A stretch of DNA of 21,907 nucleotides from a virus: positions 1-21,907 of IMG/VR virus record IMGVR_UViG_3300028025_002951; one strand, given 5' to 3'. The notes below the pieces were generated by a model, which did no database searches, had not been told where the DNA came from, and saw only the letters and a list, made by a program, of their open reading frames with translations. Made by a program: the position numbers and the translations under genes. This document shows, piece by piece, positions 1,579 to 6,880 of the stretch (positions are counted from its first letter, which is position 1; every line of letters starts with the position of its first letter).

Positions 1579-2021
1579 CATCGCTAAACCAGCAACAGAA
1601 AGACGAAATAGTTAGGCTGTATAAACTTAAAGTAATGAATAAAAATATAGCGACTATTTTAAATATTAGTAGGCACATAGTAAACAATTACATATACAAA
1701 GACTACTTGCTTACCAATGAGAGAGCCAAAAATACGTGCGCTTACATGAAGGATGCGGATCAGGTAATTGAATTGTATGTTAAAGGTCTTCCGTACAAAG
1801 AAATTATGTCTATGACTGGTGTAAAATACCATCATTTGTGCGAGATTATAAAACTTACACCAAAAAGAAGAATTGATCCTTTATCTATAAAATTAGTTAG
1901 GCAAATAGAGAGCATGGTAGAGGAAAATTGGAGAACTTGCGACATAGCAAAAGAGATGAATTTAGACTACAATCGAGTCTCACATTGGGTAAGAAAAGCA
2001 CGAAAGGAGGGTGTACACTAG
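1575..2021 (+). CDS. DNA-binding protein with three HTH-like modules
   Basis: 148 aa. Three helix-turn-helix-like segments follow each other: residues about 7-42 (KNIATILNISRHIVNNYI), 61-93 (YKEIMSMTGVKYHHLCEII) and 104-141 (TCDIAKEMNLDYNRVSHWV). The third is the clearest and resembles resolvase/transposase-type HTHs. The stop codon lies inside an array of phased GTNTANAC sites (2011-2051) that is repeated at 2241-2280 before the primase-helicase gene. The protein is therefore a good candidate to bind those sites, as origin-binding protein, autoregulator or both. DNA binding is inferred from the HTHs; the link to the sites comes from position only. No catalytic domain is seen. Confidence 0.72.
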   Translation: MTSLNQQQKDEIVRLYKLKVMNKNIATILNISRHIVNNYIYKDYLLTNERAKNTCAYMKDADQVIELYVKGLPYKEIMSMTGVKYHHLCEIIKLTPKRRIDPLSIKLVRQIESMVEENWRTCDIAKEMNLDYNRVSHWVRKARKEGVH

Positions 2022-2051
2022 TTTACACTAAGTGTACACCTAAGTGTAAAC
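2011..2051 (+). promoter_or_regulatory. Phased site array A (GTNTANAC x4)
   Basis: Four 8-bp sites at 2011 (GTGTACAC), 2021 (GTTTACAC), 2032 (GTGTACAC) and 2044 (GTGTAAAC). They are spaced 10, 11 and 12 bp, about one helical turn, with TAA/CTA-like linkers. The first overlaps the end of the three-HTH gene. Site type and phasing fit iterons or an operator array. Confidence 0.75.
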
Positions 2052-2240
2052 CAAAATCGGCCTCCATTGGCTCCAAACGCAATAAGTGAACACTTTGAAC
2101 ACTTTTTGACAAAAATGAAAAAAAATAAATTTTCACCTAGTAAAAAAAAATACATTATAAAAAAAAGTGTAAACCTGTAAACCTAGGGCAAAAAACGGCC
2201 TAAAATCCCGCTAATTTAAGCGTATTCGCACTTTAGGGGG

Positions 2241-2280
2241 GTTTACACTAGGTGTAAACTAAGTGTAAACTTGTGTACAC
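2241..2280 (+). promoter_or_regulatory. Phased site array B (GTNTANAC x4)
   Basis: Four sites at 2241 (GTTTACAC), 2252 and 2263 (GTGTAAAC) and 2273 (GTGTACAC), with 11, 11 and 10 bp steps. Same motif, linkers and helical phasing as array A, 190 bp away, so both arrays would present sites on one DNA face. The array lies 73 bp upstream of the primase-helicase start. Confidence 0.75.
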
Positions 2281-2352: not shown

Positions 2353-4560
2353 ATGAACGTAACACTAGGAAGAGCAATTAACTTACTGAACTCAGGGTTC
2401 AGCGTAATGCCCATATCGGAGGGTAAAAAACCTCTTATTTTATGGAAGGAGTACCAGACAAAAAAGATAGAAAAGTCAGAATTAGAGAAGCTCGAATACA
2501 AGACCAAAGGATACGGTATTATAACTGGTTTTTACGATGTTGAATGTATAGATGTAGACTTAAAGGTATTTCCAACTATCCAAGACGGAAAGAAGTTCTG
2601 GAATGACTTTATTTCTTTTATATCAGATTATATTGATGACTTTAATAGAAAGTTTGTAATATATAAGACTATAAATTCGGGATACCATATTATTTACCGA
2701 TGCTCGAAGGTAGAGGGAAACAGAAAGCTTGCAACACTTAAGGGACATTCTCAAGCCTTGATCGAAACTAGGGGAACTGGTGGATACATCTACATATACG
2801 ATAATCAAGTATCTGATTTGTCTTATGAGCAAGTGCAGGAGATTACCGAAGAAGAAAGAGAGATTCTGTTTGGATTGTGTAGGTACTTTCACTACGATGA
2901 AGCGAAGGAGGAAACTAAGATTGAGAATACAGAGTATAGTGGACTTACTCCTTGGCAAGATTACAATCATAGAAACAAGGTGCTAGATTTAATTGCAAAT
3001 GAGTTTACAGCAGTTAAGCACCTAACGGATCGAATAGTGATAAGAAAAACTAATTCTAAGGATGCCTTGCATGGATTTATATACAAGGACAGCGGATTGT
3101 GTTATCTCTTCACTACGGCCACGATTTACCCTCACGAGACACCTTTGACTCCATTTAGTATCTACGCATACAAGTACTTCAATGGAGACTTCTCAATGGC
3201 TGCTAAGGAGCTGTACAAGGAAGGCTATGGCGAGCGAAAGATTCGCAAGGTAGAAATAGAGAAAATTGAAATTCCTCAGGAGGATTTAATATTCCCGATT
3301 GATGTGTTTCCAGAGTCATTGCAGAGTTATATTCTGTTAAATCAGAAAACACTTAATCATTCTATTGACTACATGGGATGTTCATTGCTTTGGCTTTTGT
3401 CTCTTTGCATTGGAAACGCTTGTAAGGTAGAGGTAAAAACGGGATGGAGGGAATCTTGCAACATCTGGATTGGATTAATAGGCAAGGCTGGACTAGGAAA
3501 AACACCTAGTATAAATGCGATTATCTTCCCGATTGCTAAGAAAAATAGCTTTGAGATTAAGCATTACCAGAACGAATACAAAAAGTACAAGGAATTCGAG
3601 AGATTGACTGCAAAGGAAAAAAAGGATGTAGAGGAAATTAAGGAGCCTGTAAGAAAGCAGCTAATTGTAAATGACATCACCGTAGAAGCGTTGGCGGATT
3701 TGCACGAGGAAAATCAAGTAGGTATTGCGGTATTTAAGGATGAGTTGAATGGATGGATCAAGGACATGAATAAGTATAAGCCTGGATCTGATCTCGAGTT
3801 TTGGCTCTCATGTTGGTCTAATCAAGCAGCAATTCTAACTAGAAAGTCTGCAAAAAGTAGCTTTGTTGCGAGTCCATTGATTCCGGTGCTAGGTGGCATA
3901 CAACCTGGAATATTTTCTCAAATTTCCACAATGGAAAACAAAGACAATGGATTCCTAGACCGATTGCTAGTAAGTTATCCGGACAAAGAGATTGAACACT
4001 ACAACAAGAACTCTATTGACCAAGAAATATTGGATTGGTACGAGGCTTACATCAGTCAGTTCTATAACCTAGTGAGAAACCAAGTTTTGCAGTACAATAA
4101 GTTTGGAGAGATTGAGAGTAGAATCATTCGATTTGATAGCAAAGCTGATATTGAGTGGGAGCGTATCTTTAACAACATTACAGATTTGCAGAACTCTGAT
4201 GACATCTCGGAATATGTGAAATCCATGTTGAGTAAGCAGAAGGCTTATGTGCCTAGATTTGCACTGTTGATTAATACGCTCTGGTCATTCGAGACAGGAA
4301 AGGATTTTGATTTTGTTACTAAGGAATCTTTACTGAAGGCAGAAAAGTTGAGTAACTACTTTATTGCAATGTCAAAGAAGATTAAGATTAGCAGTCTTGA
4401 ATCTAATGAGCTTAGTGAGATTATCAGGTCAATGAAAAACGAGTCAATAGAAAAGAAAATCGAGATGATTAATAAGACCATCCCAGATTTTAATCGCTCT
4501 GAGTTAGCAGAGTTACTAAATGTAAGTAGAACAACGATTTATAAACACTTAAAGAAATGA
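2353..4560 (+). CDS. Primase-polymerase / DUF3987 helicase replication protein
   Basis: 735 aa, the main replication enzyme. The N-terminal bifunctional primase-polymerase domain (about 1-150) shows the GKKP segment (24-27), catalytic D67-x-D69, H112 in GYHIIYR and the ETRGTGGY segment (138-145). A linker leads to a DUF3987-type P-loop ATPase with Walker A G377-x4-G-K-T384 and Walker B-like hydrophobic strand ending D463-E464. The last 21 residues (715-735) form an HTH (SELAELLNVSRTTIYKHL), an unusual tail that may contact origin DNA. It should synthesise primers and unwind the fork. The site arrays lie just upstream; the next gene overlaps by 4 bp. Domain assignment is strong; the HTH role is inferred. 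Confidence 0.9.
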   Translation: MNVTLGRAINLLNSGFSVMPISEGKKPLILWKEYQTKKIEKSELEKLEYKTKGYGIITGFYDVECIDVDLKVFPTIQDGKKFWNDFISFISDYIDDFNRKFVIYKTINSGYHIIYRCSKVEGNRKLATLKGHSQALIETRGTGGYIYIYDNQVSDLSYEQVQEITEEEREILFGLCRYFHYDEAKEETKIENTEYSGLTPWQDYNHRNKVLDLIANEFTAVKHLTDRIVIRKTNSKDALHGFIYKDSGLCYLFTTATIYPHETPLTPFSIYAYKYFNGDFSMAAKELYKEGYGERKIRKVEIEKIEIPQEDLIFPIDVFPESLQSYILLNQKTLNHSIDYMGCSLLWLLSLCIGNACKVEVKTGWRESCNIWIGLIGKAGLGKTPSINAIIFPIAKKNSFEIKHYQNEYKKYKEFERLTAKEKKDVEEIKEPVRKQLIVNDITVEALADLHEENQVGIAVFKDELNGWIKDMNKYKPGSDLEFWLSCWSNQAAILTRKSAKSSFVASPLIPVLGGIQPGIFSQISTMENKDNGFLDRLLVSYPDKEIEHYNKNSIDQEILDWYEAYISQFYNLVRNQVLQYNKFGEIESRIIRFDSKADIEWERIFNNITDLQNSDDISEYVKSMLSKQKAYVPRFALLINTLWSFETGKDFDFVTKESLLKAEKLSNYFIAMSKKIKISSLESNELSEIIRSMKNESIEKKIEMINKTIPDFNRSELAELLNVSRTTIYKHLKK

Positions 4561-4853: not shown

Positions 4854-4876
4854 TTACCCACCCCCCCCCCTAATTA
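4851..4876 (+). repeat. C10 tract flanked by TAATTA direct repeats
   Basis: CCCA plus C10 (4857-4870) lies exactly between two copies of TAATTA (4851-4856 and 4871-4876). It fills the 25-bp gap between the stop of the 98-aa protein and the VRR-NUC start at 4879. This is the third ACCCnA-Cn tract in the block, and the second with short flanking direct repeats. Confidence 0.6.
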
Positions 4877-6303: not shown

Positions 6304-6491
6304 TAAAATATAAATATGAAGAATTGGACTTTCATGTCGATTCAGAATCAGGAAACTTGGTTATCGACTACGGAGAAAATGTAGTTGAAATAGAAAATCA
6401 CTTTGCAATAGAGCTTCTTGGAATATTAATGCATAAGCTACATTTACATATAGAACAAAAAGAAAGTGTTATCAAACGATTCTTTAAATAA
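6300..6491 (+). CDS. Hypothetical protein (63 aa)
   Basis: Start overlaps the previous stop (ATGA at 6300-6303). The sequence alternates strands (DFHVDSESGNLVIDYGENVVEI) and then forms an amphipathic helix (FAIELLGILMHKLHLHIEQ), so a compact beta-beta-alpha fold is plausible. No family is recognised. It is retained because of coupling and coding-like composition. Confidence 0.62.
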   Translation: MIKYKYEELDFHVDSESGNLVIDYGENVVEIENHFAIELLGILMHKLHLHIEQKESVIKRFFK

Positions 6492-6492
6492 G

Positions 6493-6747
6493 ATGGAAGA
6501 AGCTCAAGTACTCAATCCCTTTGGATACCTATCTGCTACCAAGGTACTCGATGAAAACCGCAAACCTAGTGAGTGGTGGATTGAGTACCTAGAGTTTAAC
6601 GAAATAGTAGCTGAAAACGAATTCTATGTTCTTTTTTCAGATGGGTTACTGGTTAAAAAAGGAAGGTCTAAGTTTAGGACTAGCCAGTATTTAAAATCAG
6701 AGAAGTTTAAATCATTTAAGGAATTTTTGACACAATGTGACAATTAG
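6493..6747 (+). CDS. Hypothetical protein (84 aa)
   Basis: Start chosen at ATG 6493 (MEEAQVLNPFGYLSA), one base after the previous stop; a longer in-frame reading begins at a non-ATG codon inside the upstream gene. The chain is rich in aromatic and charged residues (EWWIEYLEFNEI, FYVLFSDGLLVKKG) and ends with a basic helix. No domain is recognised. It is the last gene before the tRNA-like cluster. Confidence 0.7.
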   Translation: MEEAQVLNPFGYLSATKVLDENRKPSEWWIEYLEFNEIVAENEFYVLFSDGLLVKKGRSKFRTSQYLKSEKFKSFKEFLTQCDN

Positions 6748-6750
6748 TGT

Positions 6751-6767
6751 CTAATTATAGTAATTAG
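6751..6767 (+). repeat. 7-bp inverted repeat at the tRNA-like 5' end
   Basis: CTAATTA (6751-6757), TAG spacer, TAATTAG (6761-6767). The right arm covers the first two bases of the tRNA-like RNA. It could be a protein-binding site, a processing hairpin or chance in A/T-rich DNA. Confidence 0.4.
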
Positions 6768-6880
6768 TCAGGTGGCGGAATTGGTGCCAAATATAATCCC
6801 TCCACTCAATAGGGATGAAGGTAATAACGAGGGTAATCGGGAATAACTTTATATTACAGGTTCGAATCCTGTCCTGACTA
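6766..6880 (+). tRNA. Aberrant tRNA-like RNA 1 (Leu-like D region, isotype unclear)
   Basis: Seven-bp acceptor AGTCAGG/CCTGACT (6766-6772 with 6873-6879), discriminator A6880 and no encoded CCA. The T arm is canonical: ACAGG, loop TTCGAAT, CCTGT (6856-6872). The D region GGCGGAATTGGT resembles type II (Leu) tRNAs. The middle is odd. A hairpin ATCCCT/AGGGAT (6796-6801, 6811-6816) has a 9-nt loop, an extra 33 nt follow, and AATATA(A) at 6790 can pair with TTATATT at 6849-6855 right beside the T arm. At 115 nt it is long for a tRNA. It may be a degenerate tRNA or a tRNA-like structure with another job. Confidence 0.55.

Follow-up and report, generated by a model that had tools for sequence, protein, structure and literature searches.

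The 270 bp from 2011 to 2280 of the window, by which we mean the whole 21,907-base uncultivated virus contig analyzed here, are very probably an iteron replication origin, and sequence comparison points to the primase-helicase encoded at 2353-4560 as its initiator. The original prediction likewise read this region as a phage origin, but assigned the sites to the protein with three helix-turn-helix (HTH) units encoded directly upstream. The origin part of that reading is well supported, as iterons surround an A+T core beside the initiator gene in nearly every family member, whereas the pairing with the three-HTH protein is not. Because the repeats change with the reading residues across about 100 phages, we regard the tail of the primase, rather than the three-HTH protein, as the probable reader.

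The left-hand genes of the window encode an ERF annealing protein, an exonuclease, small proteins, the three-HTH protein and the primase-helicase, and genes in the right half lie on the other strand. In cellular assemblies, primase relatives were found mostly in Bacteroidota, and therefore the phage host is probably a member of Bacteroidota. Searches of phage records returned no DNA match to the window, no match for the three-HTH protein and only distant matches for the primase. Primases 76-99% identical to that of the window were present on 80 viral contigs. Relatives whose primase is at least 75% identical, and whose contigs reach far enough upstream, kept the place and layout of the array, with the occasional loss of a site. 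Three runs of 9-10 C (1351-1359, 2313-2321 and 4861-4870) were also seen in the window, each preceded directly by an ACCC/CACCCCA/CCCTA-like stretch and followed about 10-35 bases later by a start codon; the run at 2313 varies in length or is missing in relatives.

All eight sites reported for the two outer groups were present in the window (Table 1), and their steps of 10, 11 and 12 bp on the left and 11, 11 and 10 bp on the right agree with the claimed phasing of 10-12 bp. The two extra sites placed between the groups were also confirmed (2167 and, with one mismatch, 2175). A further pair, conserved but weaker, lies at 2086 and 2095 and was absent from the original list; TGGACAC is sometimes seen there in relatives. 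The first iteron, at 2011-2018, encodes the final residues V-H of the three-HTH gene. Over the whole window, GTNTANAC occurs 12 times against 5.1 expected, and GTKTAMAC has 9 copies in 1575-2352, a number reached by none of 2000 Markov shuffles (shuffle maximum 2). Between the halves 2011-2102 and 2167-2280 lies a core that coincides in part with the window's most A+T-rich 60-mers and contains ATGAAAAAAAATAAATTTT, nearly invariant among close relatives. Each half holds six sites, provided both weak inner-left sites are counted. The single strand of the array region is predicted to fold (z -7.1), chiefly because the near-palindromic outer arrays pair with each other. A single-strand stem-loop origin was rejected, since the predicted hairpin consists mainly of the inverted outer arrays themselves.

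Table 1 Coordinates of the array, the two neighboring genes and similar arrays on contigs lacking this family's primase
Feature	Position	Strand	Sites or basis
Three-HTH protein, 148 aa	1575..2021	+	Pfam HTH families; structure model
Left outer iteron group, 4 sites	2011..2051	.	GTGTACAC 2011-2018, GTTTACAC 2021-2028, GTGTACAC 2032-2039, GTGTAAAC 2044-2051; sequence, kept in relatives
Left inner pair, degenerate	2086..2102	.	GTGAACAC 2086-2093, TTGAACAC 2095-2102; matches family layout
A+T core, presumed unwinding region	2103..2166	.	88% A+T
Right inner pair	2167..2182	.	GTGTAAAC 2167-2174, CTGTAAAC 2175-2182; sequence
Right outer iteron group, 4 sites	2241..2280	.	GTTTACAC 2241-2248, GTGTAAAC 2252-2259, GTGTAAAC 2263-2270, GTGTACAC 2273-2280; sequence, kept in relatives
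Primase-helicase, proposed initiator, 735 aa	2353..4560	+	Pfam, PDB profile match, AF2 model, Foldseek
Prim-Pol domain	residues about 9-161 of the 735-aa protein
DUF3987 MCM-like AAA+ ATPase domain	residues 338-676 of the 735-aa protein
C-terminal HTH codons (residues 699-734), proposed iteron reader	4447..4554	+	model; covariation
Recognition helix (residues 726-734)	4528-4554	+	AlphaFold2 model
Array on primase-less contig L118	2198-2229
Array on primase-less contig L135	2330-2642
Array on primase-less contig L131	4639-4866
Array on primase-less contig L181	3326-3553
Array on primase-less contig L150	3919-4238

The HTH claimed for the end of the primase was recovered both by Pfam (HTH_11 at 701-735) and in the model, with helices at 699-709, 715-721 and 726-734. 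Among 32 family members, Pfam found DUF3987 in all 32, Prim-Pol in 27 and C-terminal HTH families in many. The N-terminus matches pRN1 ORF904 (profile E 8e-4; Foldseek against 1rni, E 4e-7). In Foldseek the middle domain matched MCM-type AAA+ helicases, with E values between 2e-4 and 1e-3 and low TM-scores, and we treat this match as a lead rather than an assignment. On contig L140, a second primase fragment on an unrelated start (6323-6851) is a probable assembly chimera.

To follow the array across the family, we used 63 representatives, defined as non-redundant primase-helicases below 92% identity. In 62 of the 63, an array lay within 0-900 bp of the member's own primase gene, either upstream or at or after its stop, while the same motif score was reached by only 3/453 control 900-base stretches. 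Two further scans yielded a second set of 43 new representatives, 38 with arrays. Paired sites were confined to one region per contig in the 13 contigs considered. More distant members carry differing arrays, such as GGTTTAAA, GTGTAACAT, GTGTAACC, GTGTAAAGT, GTGCGACAT, GTGTGAAA and others. On the long contigs, GC skew reflects the strand on which the genes lie and gives no sign of the array, and is thus uninformative as an origin test.

The best motif was upstream of the primase in 34/63 representatives and at or after the stop in 29/63. This freedom of position indicates that the array is more than a promoter for the primase. It also bears on the possibility that the arrays serve only as an operator, letting the primase or some other HTH protein repress or activate a core promoter, with no role in an origin. 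Such a reading would fit the upstream position of the array in the window and a promoter-like TTTG-N17-TAAATTTT at about 2105-2133 in the A+T core, nearly invariant in close relatives, which we take to resemble the Bacteroidetes promoter consensus. We nevertheless consider it improbable, since the arrays at or downstream of the stop keep a similar layout, about twelve sites around an A+T core exceed the needs of an operator, and the reader that covaries with the sites is the primase-helicase. Autoregulation could coexist with origin function. The primase stop codon and the first iteron share bases in L133 (6254), L140 (5196) and L109 (945), where the last codon plus stop (GTN TAA) forms the start of the site.

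In family members, the sites form four clusters, an outer and an inner one on either side of a central A+T stretch, in a mirrored layout. On either side of the core, sites are densest at about 30-50 and 80-130 bp, and the core itself averages 91% A+T. The mean number of sites per half was 5.7 and 6.2; because the search for a center favors symmetry and 8/61 arrays gave no clear center, the count of six per half is suggestive only.

We compared iteron distance, calculated free of orientation, with distance in the recognition helix. The two track each other when the rest of the protein is controlled (partial Mantel r 0.62, 0/2000 permutations), in a permutation test that controls for primase body distance only and treats phages that are non-independent. 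Given the helix, the protein body showed r -0.004 with iteron distance. When arrays upstream and downstream of the gene are analyzed apart, each set shows the covariation (r 0.61 and r 0.60, respectively), and this equal signal means that it is not explained by tight linkage between the HTH codons and the array. Of 621 variable primase columns scanned without bias, residues 727, 731, 729 and 728 took ranks 1-4, all within the last helix (726-734) of the AlphaFold2 model. Further, 66 pairs with identical helices, whose bodies are 50-93% identical, carry near-identical iterons (mean distance 0.03 versus 0.38 overall). L243 and L246, with bodies 83% identical, differ in one of seven scored helix residues (Q or R) and in an A-to-G change in the array: helix SLQMIYKY pairs with TTTTAAAC, and SLRMIYKY with xxTTGAAC.

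Several pairings between residue and base were apparent. TTTAAA-type cores accompany Leu, Val or Ile at 726, and GTG or TTG accompanies Arg726; Arg727 goes with G at the fifth position of the iteron; Lys731 goes with an AAAC or GAAC ending and Arg731 with AAC or GAC. Among 38 further phages held out, the Arg731 rule scored 13/13 versus 1/25, the Lys731 rule 10/11 versus 0/27, the Arg727 rule 5/6 versus 0/32 and the Leu/Val/Ile726 rule 4/4 versus 0/34, with exceptions such as L121, L214 and L284; as the exact patterns of the rules were fixed after the held-out list had been viewed, this is a strong check and not a blind one. The statistical covariation at residues 726-731 thus suggests that the C-terminal domain of the primase determines iteron specificity.

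The three-HTH protein was originally proposed to be the origin binder, with its several modules spanning the phased sites. It does contain three HTH units, as claimed, seen by Pfam HTH families and in a structure model (mean pLDDT 81) that shows three units of three helices each, and its gene adjoins the array on the upstream side in every close relative with enough DNA. A Foldseek search with this protein gave no significant match, and the gene was found in the window's clade only. Within close relatives its sequence falls to 50-60% identity (about 50% at the lowest), whereas the sites remain nearly unchanged. Even in L044, where the primase is 92% identical to that of the window, the three-HTH protein is 51% identical and the array is the same. 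A probable recombination between the primase and three-HTH genes, with the array unchanged, was noted in L044 (5228-8190).

More distant relatives, obtained by searching viral contigs for a pattern of three adjacent sites, have primases 41-51% identical to that of the window and carry the same sites beside the primase, often beginning at its stop codon. We found no three-HTH gene in these relatives. A three-HTH profile searched against L109, L121, L133, L140, L146, L172, L183, L185, L196 and others gave best E values of 0.14 or worse, none plausible, and against 85 further loci it gave none at E<0.01. These phages thus show what the original prediction itself named as counting against it, the sites being kept where no HTH gene adjoins them. 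The primase is the partner that stays constant, and the covariation points to the primase as well. It is therefore very unlikely that the three-HTH protein is the origin binder. It probably acts as an accessory or regulatory DNA-binding protein rather than as the reader of iterons throughout the family; by analogy with pRN1 ORF56, one might guess at a function in copy control or regulation.

Arrays of GTGTAAAC or GTGTACAC also occur on contigs without this family's primase (Table 1). We sought the primase on array contigs L108, L118, L129, L131, L135, L150, L156, L159, L162, L177, L178 and L181, many of them fragments, and found none. Some of these arrays may be due to chance, and others may be origins of other initiators or contig ends. 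Small-terminase-like genes, recognized by eye in translations, lie near the arrays of L131, L135 and L150, as might be expected if the array were a packaging or partition site and not an origin. Since in this family the array accompanies the primase gene and varies with the recognition helix, we give this explanation hardly any credence.

The best reading of the window is a self-specific iteron origin, akin to SaPI Rep-ori in logic, a likeness of function. In SaPI Rep-ori, the C-terminal domain of the initiator helicase reads iterons beside its own gene (PMC7581432). Both this system and SCCmec Cch2, whose origin is putative, resemble the present one in having short iterons by the initiator gene and a C-terminal reader, and SaPI5 Rep combines primase and helicase as the window protein does. 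Unlike in SaPI, the ATPase here is DUF3987 with MCM-like model matches and shares its chain with a Prim-Pol primase, the hosts probably belong to Bacteroidota and the origin may be placed on either side of the gene. Pfam assigned DUF3987 to family members, not the D5 or DUF927 of the SaPI Rep type. In phage P4, the alpha protein unites primase, helicase and origin binding, with a C-terminal winged helix that reads repeats, and replication requires two separate sites, ori and crr. Compared with P4 alpha, the primase type, host and repeat sequence differ here.

By domain make-up, pRN1 ORF904 is nearer to the window protein, with Prim-Pol common to both: it has a Prim-Pol N-terminus, a helicase and a C-terminal DNA-binding domain, and the origin adjoins the gene (PMC4234260). 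However, the pRN1 origin is a 100-nt stem-loop without recognized iterons and its helicase is SF3 (PMC4234260), whereas clear iterons covarying with the HTH are present here. An AEP primase fused to the putative helicase DUF3987 is described in mobile elements, and a C-terminal WH domain of PolpTN2 was proposed for origin recognition (PMC5862659); the AEP-DUF3987 fusions share the domain make-up of the window protein. A literature search covering few subscription papers found no iterons or reading code described for this primase family.

From these data we infer the following mode of action. The C-terminal HTH of the primase would read each 8-bp iteron as an asymmetric site, with residues 726-728 of the recognition helix setting one half of the iteron and residue 731 the other. 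About six iterons per side, an outer group plus an inner pair, would arrange the subunits of the initiator about the A+T core, which the MCM-like ATPase domain would then open; thereafter the Prim-Pol domain would make the first primers. A doubtful but possible extension is that each half-origin, with its roughly six iterons (3-4 outer and 2-3 inner), corresponds to a single MCM-like hexamer, that a head-to-head double hexamer loads itself around the A+T core, and that specificity evolves residue by residue along a code that can be read. If true, this would be a one-protein, loader-free counterpart of the archaeal/eukaryotic MCM double hexamer, carrying its own primase.

Taken together, these results assign a candidate origin, initiator and DNA-reading helix to a large group of uncultivated phages, probably of Bacteroidota, and DUF3987 gains a likely role as a self-loading replicative ATPase. 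They also supply about 100 protein-iteron pairs from nature whose reading code is simple and open to test, and in which origin specificity changes far while the layout stays. The system is ordinary in principle; it is a new and unusually legible variant, a fused primase-ATPase-HTH initiator with a readable specificity code.
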